A stretch of DNA of 47,220 bases, from assembly GCA_017540585.1 (NCBI GenBank), contig JAFYAT010000102.1:1-47220 (forward strand), read 5' to 3'. The stretch comes from Bacteroidaceae bacterium (GTDB lineage Bacteria; Bacteroidota; Bacteroidia; Bacteroidales; Bacteroidaceae). Positions within the stretch are counted from its first letter, which is position 1. Each line of letters begins with the position of its first letter. The notes beneath the pieces were generated by a model that was given only the letters and a program-made list of their open reading frames with translations, did no database searches and was not told the DNA's origin. The translations under genes and the position numbers were made by a program. Positions 5,027 through 41,040 of this stretch are shown here, piece after piece.

Positions 5027-5115
5027 AGTACGTCACCGACGTACTCTTAGTTTGTCCGACACGTACTCACAGTACACTCGGCACGTACTAACAGTACGTA
5101 CGCCAACGTACTGAG
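5027..5115. repeat. 22-bp-period array of ACGTACT palindromes
   Basis: ACGTACT occurs at 5039, 5061, 5083 and 5106 (steps 22, 22, 23). Units 2 and 3 have a facing half, e.g. ACGTACTAACAGTACGT at 5083-5099, a perfect 7-bp dyad with a 3-base centre. Further GTAC cores are at 5028, 5072 and 5094. Confidence 0.8.
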
Positions 5116-5139
5116 AAGCATCCCGCTTGAGAAGGAAGT

Positions 5140-5183
5140 AAATGACGAAGAAATGACGAAGAAATCACTAAGAAATCCACGAG
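5140..5183. repeat. 11-bp tandem array, four units
   Basis: Units AAATGACGAAG (5140-5150), AAATGACGAAG (5151-5161), AAATCACTAAG (5162-5172) and AAATCCACGAG (5173-5183), exactly 11 bp each, lying 24 bp beyond the 22-bp array. Confidence 0.85.
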
Positions 5184-5659
5184 GCATCATGATATAAGTT
5201 GGTGGGATCCCCCACAAACGAGAAATGTTCATCAACTCATAAGAAGCTCTCACCATCTTTCTTGAATAACATATTACACGCTGCAGACATGAACGCAAAA
5301 CAACATAATTGCACCTTCGGTGATTGGAATACCAATAATTGTACCAATAAATTCTTTTTCTCCCATTACTATCTTCATGTTTAAGTAGATGTGCAAAATT
5401 ATTTTTATAATGATTGTATTGATTAATGATGTAGGTTCAGCACATAAAATAAATGAGTGTAGTGACTCCTACTCGATTGTTTTTAGGCGTTGAAGATGCG
5501 CAGTAGGCGGTGCAAGGATTGTAATAATAATTATGCACACCTACTTATAACTGGATTAAGATTATGTCCTTCCTGTCAGTGAGAAAAGTTGCAAAGATTA
5601 CCTTCGGTGAGAATAGTTGGTAATTATTACCCATCACATGCGTGCCGAGCATGCCCCAA

Positions 5660-6080
5660 AAAGAAGCCCACAAGTAGGACAAAACGAAGCTACACCAAGA
5701 GTAATAAATTCTCTGGAAACACCCTATAAATGACAAAGCGAAGCGTTCCCGAAGCATTCCCGAACAATCCCCGAACCATTCCCGAAGGAAAAACAGAATC
5801 AAAATCTACACAAAATTACGTATAGACAATATCAGAACTGCGTTTTTCCGTATGTGGCGATTAGTATCAGCAAGGACTAACAAAGCAGGGCAAAAGTAGG
5901 ACAAAACGAAACTACGCATAGAATCATAAAGACTCATGAACTGCCTATAAATATCAAAGTGATGGTAAAACTGATGGAAAAACGGCAGAAAGAGGGCCGA
6001 ATACTAAAGAAAGAACGATGGCAAAACACACACATAATTACATATCCATCATACTCAAACTACGTTTTTGGAAATTTACG
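5660..6080. repeat. Diverged 222-bp direct duplication with unlike internal arrays
   Basis: Landmarks recur at a constant offset: AAGTAGGACAAAACGAA at 5672 and 5894 (222), TATAAAT at 5725 and 5946 (221), AATTAC at 5814 and 6036 (222), CTGCGTTTTT/CTACGTTTTT at 5838 and 6060 (222). The middle differs completely: copy 1 holds the 11-bp CCCGAA array, copy 2 holds a 12-bp TGATGG(T/A)AAAAC pair and A/G-rich sequence of the same total length. Confidence 0.7.
5733..5787. repeat. 11-bp tandem array, four to five units
   Basis: CGTTCCCGAAG (5744-5754), CATTCCCGAAC (5755-5765), AATCCCCGAAC (5766-5776), CATTCCCGAAG (5777-5787), with ACAAAGCGAAG (5733-5743) as a likely degenerate first unit. Confidence 0.85.
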
Positions 6081-6110
6081 TCCATATTTTCACAAACGTT
6101 CTTTCCTCCC

Positions 6111-8153
6111 TTATTGTTTTTCATTGTTATGTCCTTTCTTCTTTTTCAGTTGCCTTGCGATAGCCCATTGTATTTCCGCTTCTTCCTCCTTGTCCATTGC
6201 CGAGAGTATGTCACCAAAGAGTTGATGGGCAGATATGTTGTCTGCCTTTAATGATGTGCAACGGTCAAGGTCGGCACATGCCAATTCATATTCCTGCATG
6301 GTAAAGAGAATCTTGCCACGGGTATATAGTGCCTTGAAATGTGTAGGCAAGATGTCAAGTGCGCCATTGATGGAAGTAAGCGCATCCCTCAGTTTGCCTA
6401 TGGAAAGAAGCATACGTGCCTTGTTGATATAGGCATCAATATAGCGTGGATTCATGCGAAGTGCCTTGTCGTAGTTTGCCAAGGCAGCTTGCGTGTCGCC
6501 CATGTTGACACACTCGTCTCCGAGGAAGAGGTATTCCTTGGCATAATCATTGAGCACAAGCTGTTTCTCATTCAGTTCAGTCTCCTTGTCCTTCAACTGC
6601 TGGCGAAGGGATTCTATCTCTGCCTTCAAGATGTTGATGACGCCCAGTTTCCTTCGGATATATCTCCATGCCCAAGGCTTCTCTATGTCGTAGCGAGCAT
6701 GGATAGCCTTGAAGAAATGTGTGAGACAAGCATCGAAGTCTCCCTTGTTGAATGCCTCTACGGCATCACTATATTCTATGTCTGCACCAGCACGTTTAAG
6801 CGCAAGGTCAACAGCTTTCTGGTTGTTGAATTGTTGTGCAAACTGTACCACATTAGGGCTGACAAATATGTCCGACTGCGAGATAGGTTTCTTCAGTTGC
6901 AGACCTTGAAGTGAACGGCAACGTGAGAGCGCAACGTAAGTCATGCTTCCTGCGAACACTCCACCCGTGAAGTCGATGGCTGTGCGTGAGAATGTGAGAC
7001 CTTGACTTTTGTGAATCGTTATTGCCCATGCCAATCGTACAGGGAACTGGGTGAATGTGCCAAGTTCTTCCTCTTCAATCTTCTTTTCCTGTTCGTTGTA
7101 TGTGTAACGCACGTTAGCCCACATGGCACGTTCCACATCCAGTTCCTTGCCTTCATCGGTAAGGATGTAGAGGTGGTCGCCAGTTTCGAGGTCAATACCC
7201 GTGATTGTACCTATGGTTCCATTAACCCAACGCTTGTCCTGGTCATTCTTGATGAAGATAATCTGTGCTCCCACCTTCAGTTCGAGGTCAAGCAATGTAG
7301 GAAGGGATGATTCAGGAAACTCGCCACGTATCTCTCCCTTGAAGTGAATAGGATCGCCCTCAAGATTATTGAGATTTGTCTGGTTGATGCTATCTACTAC
7401 GTCGCGACGCGTAGCGAGAGTGACGAACATACCATTCTCTCCACTCACATCCTGGTCAACACAAGTGTTGAGCAGTTCGAGATCGTGCGATGCAAGGTTA
7501 TTGGTACGTATATGGTCGAGTACGCTTATGAAGGCGTTATCAGATTGACGATACACCTTTGTCAATTCGATGGAAACGAGTTGCATCTCCTTGAACACCC
7601 TTGCTGAGAAGAAATGAGGCGTTTCCCAGAAACGACTTAGGATATCCTGCTCATCACGCGTGACCACTGGCTCAAGCTGGAACACGTCGCCAACGAAGAG
7701 CATCTGTTTTCCTCCAAACGGCTGTCGGAAGTTTCCCGAATAGGTGCGAAGCAGACGGTCAATGAAGTCAATCACGTCAACTCTAACCATTGAAATCTCG
7801 TCGATAATTATGAGTTCGAGCGACTTAATCAACTTGATATGTTCCTTGTTATACTTTAGAAATTGCTTCAGACGACCTGGTGTGCTGAAACGTGTGTCAT
7901 CAGGCACGAGAGGATGAAACGGAAGGTGAAAGAATGAGTGCATGGTACTGCCCCCAGCGTTAATGGCGGCAATACCAGTAGGTGCCAGAACGACGAACTT
8001 CTTCTTCGTGTTCTGACAGATATACTTCAAGAATGTTGATTTACCTGTACCAGCCTTACCTGTCAGAAAGACAGATTGGTTAGTGAACTGTATCAGGTTC
8101 TGGGCGTTCTTGAATTGAGGATTCTCTGTGTCTATCGTATTTTGCGTAGGCAT
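6111..8153 (-). CDS. Pif1-like superfamily 1 helicase with C-terminal TPR repeats
   Basis: 680 aa, cytoplasmic. Residues 1-440 are an SF1B helicase of the Pif1/RecD2 type: Walker A GKAGTGKST (32-40), motif Ib-like TGIAAINAGGSTMHSFF, Walker B LIIIDEISM (DE 118-119), motif III LFVGDVFQLEPV (153-164), and near residue 380 the C-terminal motif AITIHKSQGLTF followed by YVALSRCRSLQGL. A central Lys/Glu-rich coiled stretch (about 520-550) leads to tetratricopeptide repeats (about 555-670; NYDKALRMNPRYIDAYINKA, then ALDILPTHFKALYTRGKIL). The TPRs suggest a partner protein recruits it. The reading frame starts 74 bases inside the 3' end of phoH, so the two are probably translated from one message. Ends in a Lys-rich tail KKKKGHNNEKQ. 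Expected role: 5'-3' DNA unwinding in replication or repair (family inference). Confidence 0.92.
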   Translation of the reverse strand: MPTQNTIDTENPQFKNAQNLIQFTNQSVFLTGKAGTGKSTFLKYICQNTKKKFVVLAPTGIAAINAGGSTMHSFFHLPFHPLVPDDTRFSTPGRLKQFLKYNKEHIKLIKSLELIIIDEISMVRVDVIDFIDRLLRTYSGNFRQPFGGKQMLFVGDVFQLEPVVTRDEQDILSRFWETPHFFSARVFKEMQLVSIELTKVYRQSDNAFISVLDHIRTNNLASHDLELLNTCVDQDVSGENGMFVTLATRRDVVDSINQTNLNNLEGDPIHFKGEIRGEFPESSLPTLLDLELKVGAQIIFIKNDQDKRWVNGTIGTITGIDLETGDHLYILTDEGKELDVERAMWANVRYTYNEQEKKIEEEELGTFTQFPVRLAWAITIHKSQGLTFSRTAIDFTGGVFAGSMTYVALSRCRSLQGLQLKKPISQSDIFVSPNVVQFAQQFNNQKAVDLALKRAGADIEYSDAVEAFNKGDFDACLTHFFKAIHARYDIEKPWAWRYIRRKLGVINILKAEIESLRQQLKDKETELNEKQLVLNDYAKEYLFLGDECVNMGDTQAALANYDKALRMNPRYIDAYINKARMLLSIGKLRDALTSINGALDILPTHFKALYTRGKILFTMQEYELACADLDRCTSLKADNISAHQLFGDILSAMDKEEEAEIQWAIARQLKKKKGHNNEKQ

Positions 8154-9066
8154 TTACTATTCTTGTGACGAGTTTATGACGTACTATATCCTTCTCATTC
8201 ATCTGTATGATTGAAATACCCTTAACGTCCTTCAAGACCTCGGTAGCCTCTTTGAGACCTGACTTCACATTGCGAGGAAGGTCAATCTGAGTCATGTCGC
8301 CGGTGATAATCATCTTCGTTCCTTGTCCCATACGGGTAAGGAACATCTTTATCTGTTGAGTGGTAGTGTTCTGTGCCTCGTCAAGGATGACGACAGCATC
8401 GTTCAGTGTACGTCCACGCATGAAGGCGAGAGGTGCAATCTGAATGACATTCTGCTCCATGTATTCCGTGAGCTTCTGTGCAGGTATCATGTCTTGAAGT
8501 GCATCGTAGAGTGGCTGAAGATACGGGTCAATCTTATCCTTCATGTCTCCAGGGAGAAAACCGAGTTTCTCGCCAGCCTCAACGGCAGGTCGTGAGAGGA
8601 TAATCTTGCGAATCTCCTTGTTCTTCAACGCACGTACTGCAAGGGCGATGCTCATGTACGTCTTGCCCGAACCAGCAGGACCGATGGCAAAAATCATGTC
8701 GGTCTTATTGAAAGCCTCCACCAGTTTCTGCTGGTTGTCGCTACGAGGAATGATAGGCTTTCCTGTCACGCTATAGACGATAGCGGAATTGTCAGAACTT
8801 TCCTCCTTGGTACGTTCGCCCTTAATGATGTTGAGGATTGTGTCCTCGTTGAGCGAGTTGTACTTGATGCAATGCTGTTGCATCTTGTCAATGTTGTCCT
8901 CAAAGGCACACATTTCCTCCTCGTCGCCCATCACCTTGATGATGTTGCCCCGAGCAATAATGCGTAGTTTTGGATACAAAGCCTTAATCATCTGGATATG
9001 TACGTTCTTCACGCCATAGAAGGTGACGAGGTCGATGTTCTCAAGAACGATATGCTTTTCTATCAA
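8080..9066 (-). CDS. phoH: PhoH-family ATPase (PhoH-like protein)
   Basis: 328 aa. Contains the PhoH P-loop GPAGSGKT (129-136), the ILSRPAVEAGEKLGFLPGD signature (157-174), Walker B VVILDEAQN (DE 229-230) and the TGDMTQIDLP sensor motif (about 256-265). PhoH proteins are cytoplasmic RNA-associated ATPases/helicases; in Bacteroidetes they are usually encoded as here without PIN or KH domains. Its N-terminus (IEKHIVLENIDLVTFYGVKN) matches the family only if translation begins at the TTG at 9066-9064: no in-frame ATG lies between the end of queF and residue 27. The C-terminal 20-odd residues are charged and overlap the helicase start by 74 bases. Gap to queF is 38 bp, so a queF-phoH-helicase operon is likely. 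Confidence 0.92.
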   Translation of the reverse strand: MIEKHIVLENIDLVTFYGVKNVHIQMIKALYPKLRIIARGNIIKVMGDEEEMCAFEDNIDKMQQHCIKYNSLNEDTILNIIKGERTKEESSDNSAIVYSVTGKPIIPRSDNQQKLVEAFNKTDMIFAIGPAGSGKTYMSIALAVRALKNKEIRKIILSRPAVEAGEKLGFLPGDMKDKIDPYLQPLYDALQDMIPAQKLTEYMEQNVIQIAPLAFMRGRTLNDAVVILDEAQNTTTQQIKMFLTRMGQGTKMIITGDMTQIDLPRNVKSGLKEATEVLKDVKGISIIQMNEKDIVRHKLVTRIVNAYAKYDRHRESSIQERPEPDTVH

Positions 9067-9104
9067 GTTTGTGAGTTTATTTAGTTTGTATTTATGTCGT
9101 AAGA

Positions 9105-9569
9105 TTACATGTTATGATTCATCATCCTGTAATTCGCCATCTCCTCATACTTCGTACCTGGACGACCGTAGTTGGCGTATGGATAGATGCTGATACCTCC
9201 ACGAGGAGTGAAGATGCCTGTAACCTCGATATACTTAGGATCCATAAGACGTATGAGATCTTTCATAATCTTATTGACGCAATCCTCGTGGAAGTCGCCA
9301 TGATTACGAAAAGAGAAAAGATAGAGCTTAAGGCTCTTGCTCTCCACCATACGCTGGTCAGGGAGGTATGATATGCGAATCTCTGCAAAGTCTGGCTGTC
9401 CAGTGATAGGGCAGAGGCTTGTGAACTCTGGGCAGTTGAACTGTACCCAATAGTCATTCTCGGGGTGCTTGTTCTGAAATGTCTCCAGAACCTCAGGGGC
9501 ATAATCCTGACGATACTCCGTTTTCTTGCCAAGACTTTTAAGTCCCTCTGTTTCGCGTCCGTTGCTCAT
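9105..9569 (-). CDS. queF: NADPH-dependent 7-cyano-7-deazaguanine (preQ0) reductase QueF
   Basis: 154 aa, the short unimodular tunnelling-fold QueF. Reduces preQ0 to preQ1 in queuosine biosynthesis for tRNA wobble positions. Catalytic Cys53 in [12 protein letters not shown] and Asp60 are present; the substrate/NADPH signature ESKSLKLY starts at Glu76, followed by [10 protein letters not shown] with the expected His-Glu pair. Length and motif order match the Bacillus-type enzyme. First gene of the queF-phoH-helicase run; a well-formed minus-strand promoter lies upstream. No preQ1 riboswitch is visible in the short leader. Confidence 0.97.
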
Positions 9570-9623
9570 TAAATATGCTTTTGTTTTAGTGAAAATATAC
9601 TTTGAAACTACTTAATTTAGTTG

Positions 9624-9654
9624 CAAAGTTACGGCAAAGTAGAGTAAAAGCAAA
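9624..9654 (-). promoter_or_regulatory. Promoter of queF
   Basis: On the minus strand TTTG (9654-9651), 19 bp, then TAACTTTG (9631-9624): an exact match to the Bacteroidetes vegetative promoter layout. Transcription would begin near 9617, giving a leader of about 48 bases. Confidence 0.8.
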
Positions 9655-9672
9655 GAATGAATGGCATTATTT

Positions 9673-9703
9673 TTTGAAAATAATATTATATTGTATATCT
9701 TTG
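9673..9703 (+). promoter_or_regulatory. Promoter of the glycosyltransferase/HIT gene
   Basis: TTTG (9673-9676), 19 bp, TATCTTTG (9696-9703), again the ideal layout. Transcription would begin near 9711 and leave a leader of about 110 bases. Confidence 0.8.
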
Positions 9704-9718
9704 CACAAATGTTACATT

Positions 9719-9785
9719 TATCCTTTCGGATGGAAATCTGTAATAGCAAGAGAAAGTGAAGCAAAACGGAGACCATCCAAGGAGT
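9719..9785 (+). repeat. Structured leader or repeat-derived sequence
   Basis: The leader contains CCTTTCGGATGG (about 9722) that can pair with CCATCCAAGG (about 9773), ten pairs with a two-base bulge, closing a purine-rich loop of about 40 bases (AGCAAGAGAAAGTGAAGC). A local ATCC/GGAT hairpin competes with it. It does not match a riboswitch class I know, and the purine-rich loop resembles the interspersed AGCGAAGC-type repeats common in Bacteroidetes. Confidence 0.4.
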
Positions 9786-9821
9786 AATCTATAATGTTGA
9801 AAGACCCAAAATATTATTGTT

Positions 9822-12320
9822 ATGAAAAAAGGAATTGATTGCTTCCTTTCATGTGTCAATCTTTCATTGGTTGACAATCTGATAACAGAGCTTAAGGCGC
9901 AGAAGCATATCAACAATGTGTTTATCCTTTCTCCATCAACGGATACTAAGGAATATAAAGGTTGCAAAGTGCTGACGGTTACAAATGCACTCTCGTCACG
10001 CCTTGTCAAGACTATCGCAGATAATGCTGTGTCCGAATTCGCTCTTATCTTTGGACATTCTGAGACCATATCACTCGGATATGGTACAATCAATCGTATA
10101 TACAACGTTGCATTAGGGCTACATCCTTCCATTTTGTATTCAGACCGATACAAGGTAAAGAATGGCGAACGCTATGCTTCTCCTACCATCGACATACAGT
10201 ATGGAAGTGTGCGTGATGACTTCGACTTCGGTTCGATGTTCCTCATTTCCGTGAATATAATGAAAAATTATCTGGAAGAGAAGTCTGATGACGAACTCAT
10301 ATATTCTGGTTGCTATGACTATATGCTCTATCTTCTCCGTCACAAGTATGAGGCACCATTGTTCCATCTTCATGAGTATCTCTATACTGAGGAAGAACTT
10401 GACCTACGCAAGAGTGGCGAGAAACAGTTTGACTACGTTGACCCACGCAACCGTGAGGCGCAGATTGAAAAGGAGAAGGTGTTCACAGAGCACTTAAAGA
10501 AGATTGGTGCATACATCGCACCAGAGTCAGTTGACGAGATAGACCATACCAAGGGCGACTTTGACGTTGAGGCTTCAGTCATCATTCCTGTTCGCAATCG
10601 TGAGAAGACCATAGAAGATGCTGTACGTTCAGCGCTCTCACAGAAGGCATCGTTTGATTATAATGTGATTGTTGTAGATAACCATTCAACAGATGGTACA
10701 ACAGATATATTGAACAAATTAGCTAAGGAAGACAGCCGTGTAAAGCATATCATTCCATCTCGTACAGACCTCGGAATAGGCGGCTGTTGGAACCTTGCCT
10801 GCAATTCTGAATTCTGCGGTCGTTTTGCCGTTCAGCTTGACAGCGATGACCTATATAGTGGCGAAGATACTCTCCAGCGTATCGTCAACAAGTTCTACGA
10901 GGAGAAGTGTGCCATGGTTATCGGCTCTTACCGTATGTGTAACTTCCAACTTGAGACTCTCCCTCCAGGCCTTATCGACCATAAGGAATGGACGGATGAT
11001 AACGGACGAAACAATGCCCTTCGAATCAATGGTCTTGGTGCGCCACGAGCATTCTTCACACCATTGTTGCGCAAGATAGGCGTGCCTAATACAAGTTATG
11101 GTGAGGATTATGCACTTGGTCTTGCTTTCTCACGCAAGTATAAGATTGGACGTATCTTTGACGAGCTCTACCTTTGCCGTCGTTGGGAAGGTAACTCTGA
11201 TGCCGCACTCTCACCTGAGAAGGTAAACGCTAATAATGCGTACAAGGACGGACTTCGTACATTGGAGATACTTGACCGTCGCAACCTCAACAACTATTGG
11301 AATTGCGAGGCGACAATAGAAATTGCAAATGAGTTGTTTGACCTTCAGATGGAGAAGTGGAAGGAAGTAGCTGAACGCTATGAACAGTTGAAGAACGTAG
11401 CAGTAAACAATATCATTTGTGACCAAGTGAAGCTTGTCACTCAGTATAATCCTGCACGCATCGTAAGTACTGGCGCAAAGATAGATGCAAAAGCCATCAA
11501 GGAACGTCCTTGTTTCCTTTGTGAGCATAACCGACCAGAGGAACAGATTGACAACTCTATAGCTAAGAGATACCAGTTGTTGGTCAATCCATTTCCAATC
11601 CTTCCTCGTCATTTCACTATTCCATCACGTCATCATCAGCCACAAGCAATCCTAGAAAGCTATGAGGATATGATGAGTATCACGGATGGATTGGGCGACG
11701 AGATGCTGGTGTTCTACAACGGACCTCTCTGCGGAGCCTCCGCTCCTGATCACATGCACTTCCAAGCGGGAAGTCGTGGTGTTGTTCCATTAGAGCGTGA
11801 CTGGGATAACAACTACCGCAGAACACGTTCACGCATATATCCTATCAGCGAGGAGGAGTTGCTTGAGGCAAGTCGTCTTGAGCAGATAGCCGACAACACA
11901 GGTATCTTCAGCCTTCGTGGTTATGTATGTCCAGGTGTAATAATCATCACTCGTACGCCTTCGGCTAATGCTTATCTTTTCAAGAAGATTTATGATGTAC
12001 TTCCTATACCAGAGGGAGCAACAGAGCCAATGATGAACATCCTTGCATGGAAGGAGGCAAGTTCTACAGATGGTTCGCCACGTATCGTGAGCGTAATCCT
12101 ACCACGTGCAAAGCATCGTCCCGACTGCTACTATGCAGAAAGCAACGAAAAGATTCTTGTCAGCCCTGGTGCTCTCGACATGGGAGGCTTAATTATCACT
12201 CCACGTGAGGAAGACTTCCGTAAGATTACTCCAGACATGGCAGGAAGCATCATTCGTGAGTGCGGAATGTCTCTTGACGATGAATTGGAGATGATTATGA
12301 ACATGAAGAAAGTACGATGA
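9822..12320 (+). CDS. Family 2 glycosyltransferase fused to a GalT/HIT-like (DUF4922-type) domain
   Basis: 832 aa, no signal peptide or membrane span, so cytoplasmic. Three parts: an N-terminal 240 residues that resembles a degenerate nucleotidyl/glycosyl-transferase fold (LITELKAQKHINNVFILSPS); a GT-A glycosyltransferase (about 251-470) with ASVIIPVRNREKTIEDAVRS, VVDNHSTDGT and the acidic metal motif QLDSDD (about 337-342); and a C-terminal domain (about 555-832) with CFLCEHN (563-569), NPFPILPRHFTIPSRHHQPQ and the HxHxQ motif DHMHFQ (H644, H646, Q648), the pattern of GalT/Ap4A-phosphorylase-like nucleotidyl transferases. Such a fusion could both make or break a nucleotide sugar and transfer it; substrate unknown. 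Stop overlaps the next ATG (ATGA), so it is translationally coupled to the SpoIID-like gene. Confidence 0.85.
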   Translation: MKKGIDCFLSCVNLSLVDNLITELKAQKHINNVFILSPSTDTKEYKGCKVLTVTNALSSRLVKTIADNAVSEFALIFGHSETISLGYGTINRIYNVALGLHPSILYSDRYKVKNGERYASPTIDIQYGSVRDDFDFGSMFLISVNIMKNYLEEKSDDELIYSGCYDYMLYLLRHKYEAPLFHLHEYLYTEEELDLRKSGEKQFDYVDPRNREAQIEKEKVFTEHLKKIGAYIAPESVDEIDHTKGDFDVEASVIIPVRNREKTIEDAVRSALSQKASFDYNVIVVDNHSTDGTTDILNKLAKEDSRVKHIIPSRTDLGIGGCWNLACNSEFCGRFAVQLDSDDLYSGEDTLQRIVNKFYEEKCAMVIGSYRMCNFQLETLPPGLIDHKEWTDDNGRNNALRINGLGAPRAFFTPLLRKIGVPNTSYGEDYALGLAFSRKYKIGRIFDELYLCRRWEGNSDAALSPEKVNANNAYKDGLRTLEILDRRNLNNYWNCEATIEIANELFDLQMEKWKEVAERYEQLKNVAVNNIICDQVKLVTQYNPARIVSTGAKIDAKAIKERPCFLCEHNRPEEQIDNSIAKRYQLLVNPFPILPRHFTIPSRHHQPQAILESYEDMMSITDGLGDEMLVFYNGPLCGASAPDHMHFQAGSRGVVPLERDWDNNYRRTRSRIYPISEEELLEASRLEQIADNTGIFSLRGYVCPGVIIITRTPSANAYLFKKIYDVLPIPEGATEPMMNILAWKEASSTDGSPRIVSVILPRAKHRPDCYYAESNEKILVSPGALDMGGLIITPREEDFRKITPDMAGSIIRECGMSLDDELEMIMNMKKVR

Positions 12321-14924: not shown

Positions 14925-14960
14925 GTTAACTTCCGTTAACTTCGGTTAACTCCCATTAAA
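14925..14960. repeat. 10-bp array of GTTAAC units
   Basis: GTTAAC at 14925, 14935 and 14945, then ATTAAA at 14955: units GTTAACTTCC, GTTAACTTCG, GTTAACTCCC. The same unit family returns at 35811-35850. Confidence 0.8.
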
Positions 14961-14974
14961 AATGCAGGTCAACA

Positions 14975-15068
14975 TCAATCCTCGATCGATATGGTAATCC
15001 TTTCCTCGATTGAATTACTATATCAATCCTCGATCGATATAGTATATCGATCCTCATACGAAATAATA
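14975..15068. repeat. 24-bp-period array, four units
   Basis: TCCTCGAT starts at 14979, 15003 and 15027 and TCCTCATA at 15051, steps of exactly 24. Units 1 and 3 share TCAATCCTCGATCGATAT (14975-14992, 15023-15040). ATCGAT palindromes sit in the units. The array ends 64 bp before the ATG of the second transporter, where its promoter would be expected; no convincing -7 box is visible. Confidence 0.85.
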
Positions 15069-15132
15069 TCGCGGTTACCGTATGATTTAAGTCCTTAATC
15101 AAGACGACAAAAAGTAATATATAAATAAGAAT

Positions 15133-18458: not shown

Positions 18459-18539
18459 GGACATAATCTTTTAGCAAATATAATCTCAAATATTCGTTAA
18501 CTCTGTACTTACATTATGATACATCGGGAATACATCAGT

Positions 18540-18572
18540 TTTTGTTCGGGAATCCTTCGCTTTTCCTTCGGT
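18540..18572. repeat. 11-bp array, three units
   Basis: TTTTGTTCGGG, AATCCTTCGCT, TTTCCTTCGGT; the TTCG core starts at 18545, 18556 and 18567. Confidence 0.7.
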
Positions 18573-18693: not shown

Positions 18694-18759
18694 TTTTGTA
18701 CGCGTAGAAAAAAAATTTTGTACGCGTACAAAATAATTTTTCTACGTGATGTAGATATT
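18694..18759. repeat. 22-bp array with TACGCGTA palindromes, three units
   Basis: TTTTGTACGCGTA at 18694 and 18716, TTTTCTACGTGA at 18738: exact 22-bp steps. The TACGCGTA core is palindromic and A/T tracts fill the gaps. Confidence 0.8.
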
Positions 18760-18841: not shown

Positions 18842-18874
18842 AATTACGAAGGGCTACCGAACCCTTATCGAAGG
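18842..18874. repeat. 11-bp array, three units
   Basis: AATTACGAAGG, GCTACCGAACC, CTTATCGAAGG; CGAA starts at 18847, 18858 and 18869. Confidence 0.75.
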
Positions 18875-19325
18875 ATTAATGGAGGGACATGAACTGACAT
18901 TTTGTTATTTCACAGCTATTAATGTGAAGTCACGACTTATCTAAAACACAGAGGACACTTAGAACTCAGAGAAAACAATTTGGGATTTGTGAAAGTTATT
19001 TTTTCAACTTTATATTCTGATATCTTTGTTTGAATGGAAAGATGTACATGTAAAGTTTTTTTTGATTTGGTGGTTGGGAGCAGATATTAGACTTTACCCC
19101 GATTGTCCACATCAAGGGAGGCATCAACCTTATGAGAGCAAGTTCTATAAGTCGCTTTAGAATATAAAACCATAACTCAGAGTGTCGGTGTCATGAAGGA
19201 AACAAATGATTTAGCGTTGCGTGATATGCGGAACGTTCCAATTATCATATTGATGGCACGCAGAAAATGGATACGATTAACACAACATTCTCAACAATTT
19301 GTACCGATAATTCACAAATTATATA

Positions 19326-29393: not shown

Positions 29394-29396
29394 AAA

Positions 29397-29504
29397 AATT
29401 AAGAATTCATAATTCATAATTCAAAATTCATAGTTGTAATCCTTTTGTACATATTGCATAATGGAACAATTCTGAATTTTGAATTTATAATTTTTAATTT
29501 ATTT
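29397..29504. repeat. Inverted pair of 7-bp arrays between lpxC and lpxA
   Basis: Left arm: AATTAAG, AATTCAT, AATTCAT, AATTCAA, AATTCAT (29397-29431). Right arm reads the same way on the other strand: TTCTGAA, TTTTGAA, TTTATAA, TTTTTAA (29470-29497). About 38 unique bases between. It occupies the place where the FabZ half of the usual LpxC-FabZ fusion would be. Confidence 0.8.
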
Positions 29505-31590: not shown

Positions 31591-31699
31591 CGCCAAAATA
31601 AAATCAATCAGAATTTCAGAAACAGAAAAAAGACGGGTCGCAAGATATTTGCTATTTCTCTTTATTCCGCAAAACTTTGCCTCAGAATGTTTTGAGACA

Positions 31700-31743
31700 A
31701 AGTACTGACTAAGTAGTGACCAAGTAGTGACTAAGTACTGACT
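31700..31743. repeat. 11-bp array in the purM leader, four units
   Basis: AAGTACTGACT, AAGTAGTGACC, AAGTAGTGACT, AAGTACTGACT; AGTA starts at 31701, 31712, 31723 and 31734. Ends 50 bp before the ATG. Confidence 0.85.
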
Positions 31744-31792
31744 CTGAAAAGTGTTTTTTGAACGATTTATAAAACAATATAAACTCACAATT

Positions 31793-34305: not shown

Positions 34306-34414
34306 AGTTAAAAGTTAAAAATTAAAAGTTAAGAGTTAGAGATTACCCGTAGTTTACGATAACTCCAAACTTCTTAACTCAACTTTTAACTTTTGACTTT
34401 TAATTTTTAACTCC
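34306..34414. repeat. Inverted pair of 7-bp arrays between prfA and comEC
   Basis: Left: AGTTAAA, AGTTAAA, AATTAAA, AGTTAAG, AGTTAGA (34306-34340). Right: CTTAACT, CAACTTT, TAACTTT, TGACTTT, TAATTTT, TAACTCC (34373-34414), the same unit on the other strand. About 32 unique bases between; the RNA could fold into a long AU hairpin just upstream of the comEC start. Confidence 0.8.
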
Positions 34415-34433
34415 TGAAAGGAAGTCATGAAAT

Positions 34434-35768: not shown

Positions 35769-35784
35769 CTCCCCCGTGGGGGGA
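35752..35784. repeat. GC-rich palindromic module ending comEC
   Basis: GGCGGCCCCCCTCTGACTCC then CCCGTGGGGGGAG. The TGA within it is the comEC stop. Confidence 0.8.
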
Positions 35785-35810
35785 GAAAAGGAACATACTA
35801 ACATTCGTCC

Positions 35811-35850
35811 GCTAACTCCCATTAACTCCAGTTAAATTCGGTTAACTCCA
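35811..35850. repeat. 10-bp array upstream of pyrF
   Basis: GCTAACTCCC, ATTAACTCCA, GTTAAATTCG, GTTAACTCCA: four exact 10-bp units ending 26 bp before the pyrF ATG. Nearly the same units as at 14925-14960. Confidence 0.8.
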
Positions 35851-35875
35851 AAGAATAAATTAAAACAATAAATAT

Positions 35876-36691
35876 ATGACTCGTCAAGAACTTATCAATC
35901 AGATTAAAGAGAAGAAGACCTTCCTTTGTGTAGGTCTCGACACAGACATCAAGAAGATTCCTGAGCATCTCCTCAAGGAGGAAGTTCCAATCTTCGCATT
36001 CAACAAAGCAATCATCGATGCTACAGCTCCTTACTGTGTGGCTTACAAGCCAAACCTCGCTTTCTACGAGAGCATGGGAGTGAAGGGATGGATTTCCTTT
36101 GAGGCAACAATCGCTTACCTCAAGAAGAACTATCCAAACCATTTCATCATAGCAGATGCTAAGCGTGGTGACATCGGCAACACAAGCACAATGTATGCTC
36201 GCACATTCTTTGAGGAGTGCAACCTCGACTCAGTTACCGTTGCTCCTTACATGGGTGAGGACAGCGTAAGTCCATTCCTTCAGTATGAGGGTAAGTGGGT
36301 CATCCTCCTTGCACTCACTTCAAACAAGGGTAGCCACGACTTCCAGCTTACTGAGGACAAGGATGGCGAACGTCTCTTTGAGAAGGTTCTCCGCAAGAGT
36401 CAGGAATGGGGCAACAAGGACAACATGATGTACGTTGTTGGTGCTACTCAGGGTCGTATGTTTGAGGACATCCGTAAGATTGTTCCTGAGCATTTCCTTC
36501 TCGTTCCAGGAATTGGCGCACAGGGCGGTAGCCTCGAAGAGGTTTGCAAGTACGGAATGACAAAGGACTGCGGTCTTCTCGTCAACTCAAGCCGTGCCAT
36601 CATCTATGCCGACAAGACAGAGAATTTTGCCAAGGTTGCTGGTGAAGAAGCAAAGAAGGTGGCAGAACAGATGGCTGCTCTTTTGAAATAA
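35876..36691 (+). CDS. pyrF: Orotidine 5'-phosphate decarboxylase, type 2
   Basis: 271 aa. Makes UMP from OMP. The length and the catalytic segment [19 protein letters not shown] (Asp-x-Lys-x-x-Asp) mark the longer class-2 PyrF typical of Bacteroidetes and Actinobacteria. Other motifs: [18 protein letters not shown] at the start and [14 protein letters not shown] near the phosphate site. Single gene; a strong hairpin follows 22 bases after the stop. Confidence 0.97.
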
Positions 36692-36712
36692 GACTTATCT
36701 GCGAAAAACAAT

Positions 36713-36753
36713 AGGATTAAGATTTGACTTTGCATTAGTCAAATCTTAATCCT
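36713..36753 (+). terminator. 16-bp perfect hairpin after pyrF
   Basis: AGGATTAAGATTTGAC (36713-36728), loop TTTGCATTA, GTCAAATCTTAATCCT (36738-36753). No T-run follows, so it is probably a terminator or 3'-end stabiliser. Confidence 0.75.
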
Positions 36754-36773
36754 CACATCAATTACCAAACAAT

Positions 36774-37352
36774 ATGAAAAGCAAAATACTTTTAACTACA
36801 ATAATCATTCTCGCCTCATGCACAGGAAGCAAGAACAAGGTAAATGTTGACGTGGATGTTAATGTCAACACAGAAGAGGTTGCCAATGCAGAAGCCACAG
36901 ACAACGACGAGCAAGCAGACGAGAAGTACAAGGATGTGCTTACACGTGTAAAACATATCTACTCTGTATGGTTCAAAGACAGCGAATATGACGACAGCTT
37001 CTTCTCCAAGGAGCATAAAGCCATAAGCGAAAAAGGCTGTAAGCTTGCCGAAGGATGCTGGGGGGCAGAATGTGTGTTCTGGACCTTAACACAGGATTAT
37101 GGTGACAACATCAAGCTAAAGTCTGCAACAATTCATGAAGTCAAGAACGATACTGCCGTTGTAGTCAAATGCGTCATAGACCTCGACCTTGGAGAAGAAA
37201 ACAAGAACCACACCGTCTATCTTACGATGATTAAGGAAGATGGAAAATGGGTAGCCGACGACTGTCACAACGAAGAATTCTCCTACAAGGAATGTGACCT
37301 CGAAGCCATCGAACAAATGGAAGAATGGGCAAAAGAGGAAAAACAAGAATAG
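36774..37352 (+). CDS. Lipoprotein with DUF3828-like fold (tentative)
   Basis: 192 aa. Signal MKSKILLTTIIILASCTG with lipobox LASC; acidic, low-complexity linker with KVNVDVDVNVNTEE (about 25-50), then a globular part (55-185) with VKHIYSVWFKDSEYDDSFFSKEH, TAVVVKCVIDLDLG and VYLTMIKEDGKWVADDC. This layout resembles DUF3828/NTF2-like lipoproteins but I am not sure. Cys residues at about 88-101 (KGCKLAEGCWGAEC) could form disulfides. Placed 64 bp before a secreted TonB-domain protein; the two may be co-transcribed. Confidence 0.8.
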   Translation: MKSKILLTTIIILASCTGSKNKVNVDVDVNVNTEEVANAEATDNDEQADEKYKDVLTRVKHIYSVWFKDSEYDDSFFSKEHKAISEKGCKLAEGCWGAECVFWTLTQDYGDNIKLKSATIHEVKNDTAVVVKCVIDLDLGEENKNHTVYLTMIKEDGKWVADDCHNEEFSYKECDLEAIEQMEEWAKEEKQE

Positions 37353-37416
37353 TCAAGACTTGCCTTGCAAGTATCTTAATCATATAAAACAAATATTTAA
37401 CCAAAAACAAATCGTT

Positions 37417-37956
37417 ATGAAAGCATTCTTTTCATTATGTCTTTGTGCCATGATGGCAGGAAACGCCACAGCACAGACAACAAGCAACGACGAAAAGGCT
37501 AACCCAGCAGAGAGTTCCTACGTCATCTGCAACAACCCTGACACTCCTGCACACTTTGAGGGAGGCGAAAGAGCCGTGAACAACTTTATCAAGGTAAACA
37601 TGAAGTACCCTTATCAGGCACAACGTGAGGCGGTAGAAGGAACAGTCATCGTGTCCTATATCATCAACGAGGACGGACTTGCCGACGAGGTGGAAGCCGT
37701 TGAATACAACGGCATCAAGCCAACAAAGGACAAGGGCATCGCCCAGCTTGCTCTCGAGAACCTCCTCAAGAAATATCCTAAGTTGAAGACAAAGGCACAG
37801 CGTCAGTACACGGAAGCCGTACAGTCCCTTCTTGTCGAAGCCGTACGACTCGTATTCAACCTTCCGAAGGCAACTCCAGCCATGAAGGATGGCAAACCAG
37901 TAAGCGTCAAGTGTACCATCCCAGTTGAGTTTGAACACAAAGAAAAGCACGTCTGA
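37417..37956 (+). CDS. Secreted TonB C-terminal-domain protein
   Basis: 179 aa. Start at 37417 gives a signal peptide (MKAFFSLCLCAMMAGNATAQ). The rest holds a TonB C-terminal domain: HFEGGERAVNNFIKVNMKYPYQAQREAVEGTVIVSYIINEDG, the YP..A...G.V.V.F.I...G pattern. There is no proline-rich spacer or N-terminal membrane anchor, so it is not a classical energy transducer; such stand-alone periplasmic domains are common in Bacteroidetes and of unclear role. The frame is open upstream of 37417 only through the end of the previous gene. Confidence 0.85.
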   Translation: MKAFFSLCLCAMMAGNATAQTTSNDEKANPAESSYVICNNPDTPAHFEGGERAVNNFIKVNMKYPYQAQREAVEGTVIVSYIINEDGLADEVEAVEYNGIKPTKDKGIAQLALENLLKKYPKLKTKAQRQYTEAVQSLLVEAVRLVFNLPKATPAMKDGKPVSVKCTIPVEFEHKEKHV

Positions 37957-37994
37957 TTTTCAAGCCTTTCCAAGTTAACGACAAACTAAATATG

Positions 37995-38082
37995 AGTTAG
38001 TGGGAAACTCCATCATAGTTAGTGGGTAACTATATTAGAGTTAGTGGGTAACTCTGATACAGTTACCCACTAACTCAAAACA
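37995..38082. repeat. 22-bp array, four units, last core inverted
   Basis: AGTTAGTGGG starts at 37995, 38017 and 38039, exact 22-bp steps. The fourth unit, at 38061, starts AGTTACCCACTAACT, the reverse complement of the AGTTAGTGGGTAACT core. Each core is an imperfect dyad AGTTA-N5-TAACT. Located 24 bp before the -33 box of the next gene. Confidence 0.9.
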
Positions 38083-38105
38083 CCATTATTTTACCACATA
38101 TTTAT

Positions 38106-38136
38106 TTTGTCTTTAATCCGTTAAATTGTATCTTTG
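38106..38136 (+). promoter_or_regulatory. Promoter of second AAA-ATPase/nuclease gene
   Basis: TTTG (38106-38109), 19 bp, TATCTTTG (38129-38136), 27 bp before the ATG. Confidence 0.8.
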
Positions 38137-38163
38137 CAACCATAAACAAATACTCGTTGGACT

Positions 38164-39750
38164 ATGGCACAGTTAAAGAATTTACCAATCGGCATACAGA
38201 ACTTTGAAAGCCTTCGCAAAAACAACTTTCTGTATATAGATAAAACAGAACTTATCTACAACTTGATTAAGGGAGGAAGATACTATTTTCTCTCACGTCC
38301 TCGCCGTTTCGGTAAGTCCCTGCTTATGTCAACCATCCATACAATCTTTGACGGCAAACGTGAGTTATTTGATGGTCTTGCCATAGCAGACAAGGAAGAT
38401 ATGAATTGGGCAAAGCACCCTGTATTGCACATAGACCTTAACACAAACAAATATGATGCCAAGGAAGTTCTTGAGAAAAAAATTGACGAGTCTCTTTCTA
38501 TATGGGAAAAGGAATACGATTGTGAAAGGAAAGACCTCCCGTTAGGAATGAGATTTGAGAATGTCATTCAGCGTGCCTACGACAAGACAGGTCAGGGTGT
38601 CGTAATCCTTGTCGATGAATACGACAAGCCTATGCTTCAAGCTATCGGTAATGAGGAGCTTCAGAATGAGTTTCGTGGCACATTGAAAGGTTTCTATGGT
38701 GCACTCAAGAGTATGGACGGATGTATTCAGTTTGCTCTCCTCACAGGTGTAACCAAGTTCGGAAAGGTTAGCGTATTCAGCGACCTTAATAATCTGAAGG
38801 ACATTTCAATGGATCACAGATACACCACCATCTGTGGTATTACCGAAGAGGAATTGAAAGGTACAATGCTCCCATACGTGGAGCGAATGGCAGAGGCAAA
38901 CAACATGACTACGAACGAGTGTTTTGAGAAGCTGAAACAACAATATGACGGCTATCATTTCTGCGAGGATTCTGTTGGAATGTATAATCCTTTCAGCCTT
39001 CTTAATGCGTTTGACGAAAACAGGTTCAAGAGTTACTGGTTTGAGACTGGTACACCGACATATCTTGTAGAACTACTCCAGCGTGACGAGTACAATCTCA
39101 ATGATATGGAACATGCAAAGGTTGATGCCGACACGCTCAACAGTATAGATTCGACTTCACAAGACCCAATTCCTGTTATATATCAGAGCGGTTATCTTAC
39201 CATCAAGGATTATGACCAGGAGTTTGGAGAATACACACTTGGTTTCCCAAATGATGAAGTGGAAATAGGCTTTACTAAGTTCCTTCTTCCTTGGTATATC
39301 TCAAAAGAAAGGAGCAGGTCTGCGTTTGACTTAAAGAACTTTGTACTGGATATACGTTCTGGCAATGCCGAGCAATTTGTCAAGCGACTCAAGTCACTCT
39401 TTGCAGATACTCCATATATGCTCATCAAGGACCTGGAAAACCATTACCAGAACGTCATCTGGCTTATAAGTAAGCTTGCAGGTTTCTATGTTCAGGCAGA
39501 GTACATGACAAGCGAAGGTCGCATAGACCTTGTACTCCAGACTCCTAAATTCTGTTACGTCATGGAGTTCAAGCTTGATGGTACAGCGGAGGAAGCACTT
39601 GCTCAGATAGAGGACAAGCACTACACCCTCCCATTTGAGCAGAACGGCCAGCAGATTATCCGCATCGGCATGAACTTCAGCAAGGAGACAAGAAATATAG
39701 ACGGGGTAAAGATAAGCCCCCTCCCATCCTCCCCCAAAGGGGTGGAGTAA
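38164..39750 (+). CDS. AAA-ATPase-like / PD-(D/E)XK nuclease family protein, copy 2
   Basis: 528 aa, closely similar over its whole length to the product at 2779, most strongly at both ends. Same motifs: LPIGIQNFESLRKNN, SRPRRFGKS (44-52), VVILVDEYDKPM, LLTGVTKFGKVSVF, and GRIDLVLQTP with EFKLDGTAEEALAQI. Differences cluster at residues about 110-130 and 310-400. The 3' end runs into a GC-rich module that encodes PLPSSPKGVE before the stop TAA. The homology of the two loci continues past the stop (CTCCGTTCGC at 4370 and 39759; GCTTTAACTTT at 4386 and 39776), so the duplication included the flank. Function unproven; nuclease/ATPase by fold. Confidence 0.92.
   Translation: MAQLKNLPIGIQNFESLRKNNFLYIDKTELIYNLIKGGRYYFLSRPRRFGKSLLMSTIHTIFDGKRELFDGLAIADKEDMNWAKHPVLHIDLNTNKYDAKEVLEKKIDESLSIWEKEYDCERKDLPLGMRFENVIQRAYDKTGQGVVILVDEYDKPMLQAIGNEELQNEFRGTLKGFYGALKSMDGCIQFALLTGVTKFGKVSVFSDLNNLKDISMDHRYTTICGITEEELKGTMLPYVERMAEANNMTTNECFEKLKQQYDGYHFCEDSVGMYNPFSLLNAFDENRFKSYWFETGTPTYLVELLQRDEYNLNDMEHAKVDADTLNSIDSTSQDPIPVIYQSGYLTIKDYDQEFGEYTLGFPNDEVEIGFTKFLLPWYISKERSRSAFDLKNFVLDIRSGNAEQFVKRLKSLFADTPYMLIKDLENHYQNVIWLISKLAGFYVQAEYMTSEGRIDLVLQTPKFCYVMEFKLDGTAEEALAQIEDKHYTLPFEQNGQQIIRIGMNFSKETRNIDGVKISPLPSSPKGVE
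39714..39747. repeat. GC-rich module overlapping the 3' end of AAA copy 2
   Basis: AGCCCCCTCCCATCC followed by TCCCCCAAAGGGGTGGAG. In coding frame up to the stop at 39748-39750. Confidence 0.75.
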
Positions 39751-39898
39751 GAATGTTACTCCGTTCGCCAAGTAGCTTTAACTTTCACCTTTTGATTCAG
39801 ATGGTAAGAGCAGATGATTTATTTAGGTCATTCTCTTGGCTGTATCAAAAGAAATGTTTTTCTTTGCAACAAGAATTTGTCAATTAACAACATAAAAT

Positions 39899-40111
39899 AT
39901 GTTTACAGATAAAGTACAATATATAGTAGCACTAATATCAGAGTTTGCCAACAAATACGGCATTGCTGATGTACAGGCGGCTAAATACCTTAGCCGTTAT
40001 GGAGCTATCGACTTATGTGACAAACACTATGACTATCTTCATACACAATCATTTGCATCATCTGTAAGCGAAATTGCAGCTTTCTGCAAAAGAAATGGAG
40101 GTGAGCTATGA
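39899..40111 (+). CDS. DUF3791-family protein
   Basis: 70 aa. FTDKVQYIVALISEFANKYGIADVQAAKYLSRYGAIDLCDKHYDYLHTQS matches the small helical DUF3791 family that usually precedes a DUF3990 gene. No signal or membrane segment. The last codon and stop overlap the next start (ATGA at 40108-40111), so it is translationally coupled. By its position and size it could be the protective partner in a toxin-antitoxin-like pair (inference). Confidence 0.8.
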   Translation: MFTDKVQYIVALISEFANKYGIADVQAAKYLSRYGAIDLCDKHYDYLHTQSFASSVSEIAAFCKRNGGEL

Positions 40112-40383
40112 TATTATATCACGGTTCAAATACCACAATTAACGATATTGACCTGAACAAATGTCATTTATATAAAGACTTTGGACAGGCATTCTACCTG
40201 ACAGAAGACAAAGCACAAGCATCCGTTATAGCAAACGATAGAGTTGGCATGCAAATACGCAATTTCAGAATGGGTTTTATTGACATGAAAGAATTCATGC
40301 GAAGACTCCATTATATGAAAGGCATTACTTACCAATGGGCTTTTTGTACTGAAAAAGCCATAAAATATTTAGAGAGAATATGA
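40108..40383 (+). CDS. DUF3990-family protein with probable internal deletion
   Basis: 91 aa. N-terminus MILYHGSNTTI...YKDFGQAFYLTEDKAQA has the YHGS and FG.AFYLT motifs of DUF3990, which recall the H and Y strands of ADP-ribosyltransferases. The C-terminal YQWAFCTEKAIKYL contains a conserved Glu that could be the third catalytic position. Family members are commonly about 150-190 aa. Here ANDRVGMQIRNF jumps from the N-terminal part to the C-terminal part, suggesting loss of a middle segment of perhaps 60-90 residues without frame loss. Activity is therefore doubtful. ATGA overlaps on both sides. Confidence 0.7.
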   Translation: MILYHGSNTTINDIDLNKCHLYKDFGQAFYLTEDKAQASVIANDRVGMQIRNFRMGFIDMKEFMRRLHYMKGITYQWAFCTEKAIKYLERI

Positions 40384-40658
40384 ACATGGGAGTTTCATAC
40401 GAAGAGTTTCAATTTCTTGTAGAGGGCTTGACTGCGGACATGATAGAACGCTTAGTCGAGAAAGAGAACTATGACTTGAAGACAGCCATAGACACCGTTT
40501 ACGGCTCTCGCACATTTTCTGCCATTAAAAATCCGGAAACAGGTCTGTATTACCAAAGTCCAGGATATGTGATGCAGTATTTAGAGCAAGAAATCAGAAC
40601 AAGAATGACATCAAGCGCAACGGCAAGAAATTTGCAACACTCAGTGACTGTAACCTGA
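40380..40658 (+). CDS. Third gene of the DUF3791-DUF3990 trio, hypothetical
   Basis: 92 aa. EEFQFLVEGLTADMIERLVEKENYDLKTAIDTVYGSRTFSAIKNPETGLYYQSPGYVMQYLEQEI is a helical protein of the kind often found beside DUF3990 genes. After LEQEI the frame changes character (RTRMTSSATARNLQHSVTVT), Ser/Thr-rich and unlike the rest. A different frame over the same DNA is open from 40529 to 40850 and reads NKNDIKRNGKKFATLSDCNL. A small frameshift or a junction with other DNA near 40585 is likely. Coupled to the DUF3990 gene by ATGA. Confidence 0.65.
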   Translation: MNMGVSYEEFQFLVEGLTADMIERLVEKENYDLKTAIDTVYGSRTFSAIKNPETGLYYQSPGYVMQYLEQEIRTRMTSSATARNLQHSVTVT

Positions 40659-40952
40659 CGGGAGGTTTCTTTGGTCGCGCAACCAAAGTTTGTTCTGCAA
40701 TCAATTACTTTTCCGGGGCCGAACATATAGATATAAATAGTTACTGCAAGATGCGGAACAAAGCCGTAATGTATTTCTGCATGGAGACGTTATGCTGTTT
40801 TTCGATTCCTATCCTTTTATTAGCAATCGTTGTCCTTTTAAGCAAATAGTAACAGCAAAACATTTTCCGCATATTACAATTCCCCCAAATTAGGTCACCT
40901 TGGGTGGTGCGGGGTAAATCATCTGCTATCCGTAGGTTGTGACATCGCTATG

Positions 40953-41040
40953 AATCCGAAGTGAGTCCGAAGTGACTTCGCTATGCCTCCGCTATAGGAG
41001 CGGAGAAATAGTAGAAAAATAGCGGAGCCATAGCGAAATA
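40953..41040. repeat. 11-bp array, eight units
   Basis: Units: AATCCGAAGTG, AGTCCGAAGTG, ACTTCGCTATG, CCTCCGCTATA, GGAGCGGAGAA, ATAGTAGAAAA, ATAGCGGAGCC, ATAGCGAAATA. The first half carries TCCG/TTCG at 40955, 40966, 40977 and 40988 (exact 11-bp steps); the second half carries the complementary sense (AGCGGAG, ATAGCGA), so the array turns over near its centre. Confidence 0.8.

Follow-up and report, generated by a model that had tools for sequence, protein, structure and literature searches.

Several systems of short, tandemly repeated DNA units have been described in bacteria. BrickBuilt, of Porphyromonas gingivalis, is a spacerless tandem array of a 23-nt unit, present as 19 dispersed and always intergenic copies and restricted to its species save for partial matches elsewhere (PMC4596501). 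The operators of ArcA consist of two to five direct repeats with degenerate letters, set 11 or 22 bp apart from centre to centre and read by one protein (PMC3798270), and in parC centromeres ParR stacks on arrayed direct repeats of 10, 11 or 20 bp, the letters of which differ between systems (PMC9426499). A survey of prokaryotes found tandem repeats of 6–11 bp to be over-represented in the intergenic DNA of some genomes (PMC4060949). Here we consider the intergenic, helically phased repeat arrays of a 47,220-nt stretch of DNA (the window: contig JAFYAT010000102.1, positions 1 to 47,220, of the Bacteroidaceae bacterium assembly GCA_017540585.1), together with their relatives in other Bacteroidaceae. 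We tentatively regard them as dispersed, lineage-specific minisatellite families, the units of which are putative helix-phased protein-binding sites, with BrickBuilt as the nearest described system.

The preliminary description of the window, in stating that no described family was known, was too strong, as BrickBuilt is itself a dispersed, species-restricted intergenic array of 23-nt units (PMC4596501). It comes from the same bacterial order, and its unit length is matched by the 21–24-bp families discussed below, but not by the 11-bp class. BrickBuilt is a single family with a leader, a tail and terminal inverted repeats (PMC4596501), whereas here one genome contains tens of families; their arrays have only 2–6 units, mostly lack recognisable ends, and show 11 bp as a further modal period. 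The arrays resemble ArcA operators in their degenerate letters and in repeating directly every 11 or 22 bp; ArcA, however, serves one conserved regulon, whereas the arrays form many families that turn over between sister species, in a genome with only 2 OmpR/PhoB domains. With parC they share the repeat periods and the variation in letters, but parC is one plasmid site beside parM/parR, whereas the arrays occupy dozens of chromosomal sites, with no such operon seen to be linked to them (no search for one was made). The prokaryote survey scores near-perfect long simple sequence repeats (e.g. 11n2; PMC4060949), unlike the present arrays, which are degenerate, grouped in families, and extend to 22-bp dyads. 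BrickBuilt aside, no account of such arrays in Bacteroidales turned up in the open-access literature.

Periods of one and two helical turns

The intergenic arrays of the window are real: each of the twelve named in the preliminary description was found in its sequence, by Tandem Repeats Finder (TRF) and direct reading. Masked intergenic DNA of the window (6,335 bp) holds four arrays of period 10–11 and four of period 20–24 at a TRF score of at least 40 (a floor, as the mask conceals arrays that overlap spurious open reading frames, ORFs), compared with means of 0.075 and 0, respectively, in 40 dinucleotide shuffles. When intergenic 8-mers were autocorrelated over 365 kb (the window and the first stretch of each of 20 contigs), the value reached 125 at period 11 and 171 at period 22, the corresponding values being 3.0 and 2.8 in shuffled DNA, and 5.6 and 5.8 in coding DNA scaled to equal length. 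Coding DNA was flat near period 11 (8, 9 and 7 arrays at 10, 11 and 12), this control being meaningless for genomes G003 and G017, which contain runs of N and were excluded from the density and family counts. The intergenic peaks stood at 7, 8, 10, 11, 14, 16, 20–22, 24, 33 and 44, with values of 64, 77 and 106 at the nonhelical periods 7, 8 and 14. Helical periods are therefore prominent, but the list of periods in the preliminary description had omitted arrays of 7, 8, 9 and 14 bp, which are just as common.

Each family of units was also counted once (cyclic identity of the unit consensus at least 75%, with 22-bp arrays whose halves agree reassigned to period 11). A sample of 1.15 Mb from the genome to which the window belongs (hereafter the own genome; 61 stretches, 416 intergenic arrays at a TRF score of 40) gave 9, 3, 5, 12, 30, 5 and 2 families at periods 7, 8, 9, 10, 11, 12 and 13, and 3, 12, 14, 5, 6 and 2 families at periods 20, 21, 22, 23, 24 and 25. 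Because the humps at about one and two helical turns persist when families are counted once, they are not the product of one sequence; the period distribution is not flat, and the proposal that the period is kept while the sequence is not holds between families.

Families were also counted in 56 loci mostly of Bacteroides and Phocaeicola, where they peak at 22 bp (L244–L299: 8, 2, 9, 20 and 2 families at 11, 12, 21, 22 and 23 bp), and in other members of the genus (G016, G002, G024 and L222–L236: 5, 10, 6 and 6 families at 11, 21, 22 and 23 bp). Families of 21–24 bp were found in every Bacteroidaceae group sampled, and arrays of 21–23 bp are family-wide; the 11-bp class is mainly a feature of the own and sister species, making up 84/416 arrays in the former and 31/143 in the latter, and 5/63, 0/31 and 8/109 elsewhere. 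Per 10 kb of intergenic sequence, the samples contained about 13 to 28 arrays. No array at a score of 40 was found in 100 kb of E. coli K-12 (two 50-kb stretches, of which 7,438 bp are intergenic), where about 10 would be expected at the density found in Bacteroides.

Dispersed families of repeat units

The preliminary description presented the units as unrelated sequences. This is correct between families, but the units are not isolated cases, since within a family they recur at many loci. A pattern for the AAGTACTGAC family (AAGTACTGACNAAGTACTGAC, at most 2 mismatches) matched 104 times in the own genome, 29 times in that of the sister species (G050) and 0–2 times in each of 43 other genomes of the genus, its reversed control giving zero matches. 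Across these 45 genomes the AAGTACTGAC arrays are thus, like BrickBuilt, dispersed, lineage-restricted and intergenic; nearly all lie outside genes (7/75 fall inside an ORF of a simple gene caller). Aligned copies divide into type T1, in which the right end is fixed (TATGAACTTTAGGACAA) and the left end partly so, and type T2, which has CACATGAGACT units between flanks that are unrelated. The four-unit order [AAGTACTGACT]x2-[CACATGAGACT]-[AAGTACTGACT] recurs at several loci with unrelated flanks. Further recurring families are CCCGAANNATT, ACGAAGGGTTA, AGTTAGTGGGTAACT (22 bp), CCTCGATCGAT (24 bp), TACGCGTA (20–22 bp) and GGACTANNNNTAGTC (22–23 bp), and a 21-bp dyad array of Bacteroides fragilis Q1F2 (L258) matches six other places in its own genome.

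The arrays of the window are as follows.

5025..5118, unstranded: ACGTACT/AGTACGT dyad array at a spacing of about 22 bp, found by direct reading and not reported by TRF in the window; relatives at L007:387-472 and L106:6824-6914 (both reported by TRF, at 22), and at L186:4532 and L176:10769 of the sister species.
5135..5182, + strand: 11-bp direct array GAAGAAATGAC (AAATGACGAAG), from TRF, with 11-bp repeats at 5135-5176.
5739..5787, + strand: 11-bp direct array CGAAGCATTCC, of the CCCGAANNATT family dispersed in the genome, from TRF.
5882..5906 and 5956..5983, + strand: weak arrays of 11 and 12 bp, respectively, in one duplicated slot (TRF scores 36 and 42).
14925..14959, unstranded: 10-bp array GTTAACTTCC, from TRF.
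14974..15069, unstranded: 24-bp dyad array ATCAATCCTCGATCGA..., from TRF; own-genome matches in contigs C88, C11, C16 and C60.
18524..18571, unstranded: 22-bp array TCGGGAATACATCA with CCCGAA-type units, from TRF.
18694..18746, unstranded: 22-bp dyad array TTTTGTACGCGTA(C/G)AAAA, from TRF; relatives at L018:501, L105:14862 and L127:14299.
18845..18882, + strand: 11-bp array of the ACGAAGGGTTA family, found by direct reading and missing from the earlier list.
31696..31743, + strand: 11-bp T2 array GACTAAGTACT (AAGTACTGAC family), from TRF; points at the gene called at 31751.
35813..35850, unstranded: 10-bp array TAACTCCAGT (GTTAACTCC type), from TRF.
37983..38076, unstranded: 22-bp dyad array AGTTAGTGGGTAACT (22-bp repeats at 37983-38065), ending in an inverted unit, GTTACCCACTAACTC (38062-38076); relatives at L013:11994, L015:8318, L117:12039 and L176:5462.
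40951..41037, unstranded: foldback made of an 11-bp array TGAATCCGAAG/CGCTATG (40951-40975) and an inverted copy (TTCGCTATGCCTCCGC ... ATAGCGGAGCCATAGCGAA).

The array at 37983..38076 sits upstream of an AAA-ATPase_like/PDDEXK_9 gene at 38164, and what we take to be a Bacteroidetes-type promoter motif lies downstream of the array. Two short ORFs occupy 40108-40658, the first of which matches positions 1-39 of 152 of DUF3990 and may be a gene fragment.

Structural classes

The arrays had been proposed to form one class, but three structural classes differ from each other: foldbacks of 7–10 bp, direct arrays of 11 bp and dyads of 21–24 bp. An inverted partner within 250 bp was found for 34/104 arrays of 7/14 bp, 17/35 of 8/16 bp, 8/16 of 9 bp and 13/34 of 10 bp, the reversed control giving 2, 0, 0 and 1; the complement control gave 16/104, 8/35, 0 and 0, being nonzero for AT-rich classes. 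From the frequency of such partners, the 7–9-bp arrays and many 10-bp arrays make up a separate foldback class. Only 3/84 of the 11-bp arrays have an inverted partner; among the 20–24-bp arrays 30/91 do (7/91 in the complement control), partly because their units are dyads. Self-complementarity exceeded that of unit-column-permuted copies (p <=0.05) in 30% of 77 arrays of period 20–23 and 36% of 14 of period 24, and in 5% of 84 arrays of 11 bp, so that the earlier description of many units as dyads applies to the 20–24-bp arrays but is not supported for the 11-bp class.

The foldback class includes inverted pairs of heptamer arrays, in which, for example, repeats of AGTTAAA are separated by a gap from repeats of AACTTTT; they occur in the own genome and in G016 (window 34306-34412, 29395-29502 and 43147-43185; L010:5540-5719; L066:18502-18694). 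Exact-octamer foldbacks with an AT-rich palindromic centre, ACGCCGTC / GTGACGGC and TGTTAAAT / AATTTAAC, were seen at L055:6575-6788 (G016) and L081:2968-3153 (G017). Arrays of 9 bp lie between convergent genes more often than expected (9/19, with 2.8 expected). At L021:10690-10841 there is a dyad array of 33 bp, or three turns (AAAGTTTACTTTGTAAAGTAAG..., 4.6 copies).

Spacing, orientation and the nature of the dyads

Of 278 steps between units in six 11-bp families, all but one (of 10 bp) measure exactly 11 bp, and the same units carry 249 substitutions from consensus. Intergenic DNA aligned between the own genome and the sister species (10/31 pairs usable) shows 8 indels per 213 substitutions, which predicts about 9 shifted steps. 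The scarcity of indels suggests that the 11-bp step is held. Among 62 chains of AAGTACTGAC units, 115/138 steps are at 11 bp and 19/138 at 22 bp, a pattern that fits OmpR/PhoB-type direct-repeat spacing. The 23-bp dyads are looser, with 8 steps of 22 bp and 16 of 23 bp.

T2 arrays are oriented. In tandem regions they point at the downstream gene in 24 cases and away from it in 2, with 1 further array between convergent genes, after 10 divergent arrays, 4 at the ends of stretches and 4 inside called ORFs had been set aside. By set, the ratio was 14:0 in the first stretches, 5:2 in held-out stretches of the own genome and 5:0 in the sister species, this last set including one orthologue of an own locus. 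A hand-made list had given 26/26 arrays with a codirectional right-hand gene (17 tandem informative, 9 divergent), a figure that this systematic recount lowered. The case for a coherent T2 regulon was weakened. Ordinary genes adjoin the 20 T2 arrays for which neighbours were scanned: 17 of the 20 downstream genes have a Pfam match and 3 do not, and their functions are mixed (including MeaB, DprA, DnaX, UvrA, a V-type ATPase subunit and a sulfatase). The position of TAnnTTTG motifs, which we take to be promoter-like, varies: some T2 arrays have one on the downstream side, others on the upstream side. In families other than T2, an orientation bias is absent or mild (same:opposite 9:24 for AGTTTTTA, 18:9 for AGTTAAA, and 11:4 for both GTTAACTCC and GAACGGAGAAA).

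If the dyads were selected as RNA hairpins, mismatches between their arms on the sense strand should favour G-U. In 68 dyad arrays of tandem regions there were 27 G-U, 41 A-C and 108 other mismatches (978 paired positions), that is, no excess of G-U and no RNA signature, so that RNA hairpins were rejected as the selected form of the dyads, and the RNA part of the suggestion that the arrays are RNA or DNA curvature elements gains no support from this comparison. In 27 dyad arrays of L237–L299 the excess was opposite (6 to 22 in 13 tandem arrays), a reversal that we cannot explain except by repeated units having been counted more than once. A loop is lacking in many dyads. Co-variation of paired positions between units was seen, with 92 complementary cells compared with 80.1 expected; this excess of 11.9 was reached by 5/400 nulls in which the dyad was re-selected (null value 1.2, standard deviation 4.8; p about 0.012).

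Turnover between close relatives

Turnover of the arrays is fast. When 31 orthologous intergenic pairs were aligned between the own genome and the sister species, the window arrays at 14925-14959 and 14974-15069 were both missing from the sister, in which the intergenic region is 135 bp shorter (pair 4). Single units also come and go: one 11-bp CCTTCGTTAAC unit is present in one species and absent from the other within 98% identical DNA (pair 21), and elsewhere three 21–22-bp units in one species correspond to one in the other (pair 15). In the AAGTACTGAC family, 9 loci could be compared, of which 2 are shared (one being pair 21), 1 is confined to the own genome (pair 17) and 6 to the sister, 'absent' meaning that there was no BLAST match to the array in about 2.3–3.2 kb around the own-genome match. 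(Sixteen sister loci were listed; 8 fragments were searched, all 8 matched, and the upstream comparison was usable in 7.) Upstream of one gene the sister has a AAGTACTGAC-type array and the own genome a TATCGAAGG-type array, bearing out the expectation that units would differ at orthologous places. At two other sister-only loci the own genome has a long CACAGAG-type foldback in the corresponding region; these 9-mer foldbacks, upstream of genes, are L211 and L217 (own contigs C82 and C124).

Across a set of 80 loci, arrays of period 10–11 or 20–24 occurred in 9/19 intergenic families represented by at least 5 genomes, each time in only 1 or 2 of them. Unit number was unchanged in the close pairs L294/L297, L262/L272 and L274/L292, an array was gained or lost in L258/L263 and L290/L295, and records of B. 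fragilis differ by a 63-bp, three-unit array with flanks that align, the array noted above as matching six other places in its genome. Such presence/absence turnover, with 2/9 AAGTACTGAC loci shared between sisters, tells strongly against conserved operators.

The segment L003:5544-6927, compared with L174, is 96–100% identical to the sister, most compared flanks being about 80–93% identical, and may reflect recent exchange.

What might read or copy the arrays

The shared step of one or two turns, the near-constant spacing and the dyads that are kept as letters change point to proteins bound in register, as in ArcA and ParR; and the combination of dispersal, lineage restriction and presence/absence suggests that whole arrays are copied, as in BrickBuilt. 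Each family repeats one DNA word at one turn (11 bp, direct and non-palindromic) or two (21–23 bp, usually a palindrome). As the constant element is spacing, the likeliest reader would be a cooperative DNA-binding protein, either a separate one for each family or a small set of relatives, aligned on one face of the helix, with each 11-bp unit taking a monomer, head to tail, and each 22-bp dyad a dimer. New arrays would arise at new loci when several units are copied together, and those already present may gain, lose and exchange units in register. Of the explanations offered in the preliminary description, docking sites read by their spacing are thus the one we favour, tentatively, though no such protein has come to light.

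Several points weigh against this protein-binding interpretation. The test of rigid spacing started from pairs at 11 bp and counted shifts of at most 2 bp, and so overstates the deficit of indels. The covariation of dyad arms is modest. The distribution of classes among intergenic regions follows region length (divergent/tandem/convergent 16/62/11, with 19.0/57.1/12.9 expected, for period 20–24, and 27/74/13, with 24.3/73.1/16.5 expected, for period 10–11), and placement as lengths predict is not operator-like behaviour. Orientation was weaker at the held-out T2 loci (5 same, 2 opposite, 1 convergent) than in the first set (14, 0, 0). The presence of AAGTACTGAC was the reason for choosing many of the sister stretches and some of those in the second own batch, which inflates the array counts, and the family counts less. 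No array-binding protein was found among the candidates checked, and no copying enzyme (no search for a transposase or reverse transcriptase was made). There are 2 Trans_reg_C (OmpR/PhoB-type) domains in the own genome and 1–3 in 11 others, so this class cannot read 30 period-11 families one by one, and LytTR counts (6 in the own genome, 6 in the sister, 0–6 elsewhere) do not track the arrays. Genes for AAA-ATPase_like/PDDEXK_9 proteins (PF09820) lie in the window at 2680-4353 and 38164-39750, with 4 copies over the Pfam cut-off in the own genome; they were rejected as partners of the arrays, there being no match in G016, G017 or G024, relatives that still have arrays (of 22–23 bp in G016 and G024, and single ones of 22 and 23 bp in G017). 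The expectation that the presence of some gene would track with the arrays was therefore disappointed for both PF09820 and LytTR.

A bolder version, which we think unlikely, is that a single machinery in Bacteroidaceae senses or imposes helical phase and founds, spreads and rewrites the arrays, keeping their geometry and leaving the letters free; candidates would be a family of phase-reading, filament-like DNA-binding proteins or a polymerase that adds repeats in steps of one turn. It is similarly doubtful that each array forms the body of a very small non-autonomous transposon, a miniature inverted-repeat transposable element (MITE) of the BrickBuilt kind, with a spacing set by transposase-binding sites and the transposase acting in trans. 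Their dispersal, lineage restriction and presence or absence at orthologous sites would be explained, T1 copies have fixed ends (...GGTACNGTTG array TATGAACTTTAGGACAA), two dyad-23 arrays (L122 and L174) start with TCTCTCA and finish with TGAGAGA, and BrickBuilt, in the same order, has its 23-nt units inside a MITE (PMC4596501). Those two, however, are the only loci of 10 in the dyad-23 family with fixed inverted ends; T2 showed neither terminal inverted repeats nor target-site duplications of any consistent kind (duplications being judged by eye), and a common element fails to explain 30 unit families with one period. No transposase was linked to the arrays, although no transposase search was made; the AAGTACTGAC pair (AAGTACTGACTAAGTACTGAC) had no exact match in the collection of viral contigs, and a B. 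fragilis array was absent from plasmids.

Mutational copying with an 11-nt step, by slippage or by templated synthesis (for example, by an RNA-templated repeat-adding polymerase) that expands whatever local sequence is present, seems improbable. Put forward in the preliminary description, it accords with the single-unit changes within otherwise 98% identical DNA (pairs 15 and 21), but not with identical multi-unit orders at unrelated loci, where local sequence has not simply been expanded; nor would slippage lead one to expect dyad units with co-varying arms, and 11-bp arrays are rare in other members of the genus (the 5/63 and 0/31 above). More improbable still is that the arrays serve, like those of the ArcA regulon, as plain operators for a single conserved regulator or a handful of them, of the LytTR or OmpR/PhoB type: ArcA sites, with their two to five direct repeats spaced by 11 or 22 bp (PMC3798270), and the oriented T2 arrays upstream of genes speak for this, but have to be set against the few loci shared with the sister, the mixed functions of the 20 downstream genes, the absence of the arrays from the rest of the genus and the scarcity of OmpR/PhoB domains. 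RNA hairpins, terminators or mRNA-stability elements can be given very little weight, for although one-third of the 20–24-bp arrays fold better than unit-permuted controls and the 7–10-bp arrays frequently have a nearby inverted partner, there is no G-U excess, many dyads are loopless, an Rfam scan of the window gave no match at gathering score, and terminators were rejected because arrays of periods 10–11 and 20–24 are not enriched between convergent genes.

Significance

If it is spacing, rather than spelling, that is kept, motif searches would miss a large layer of protein–DNA contacts in a major group of gut bacteria. The arrays would then give a direct handle on the origin of species-specific chromosome architecture or regulation, and would provide fast-evolving natural material for studying how cooperative binding sites are born and lost. 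Should they prove to be mobile elements after all, BrickBuilt would become one case of a widespread, many-family phenomenon, and not a curiosity of Porphyromonas.

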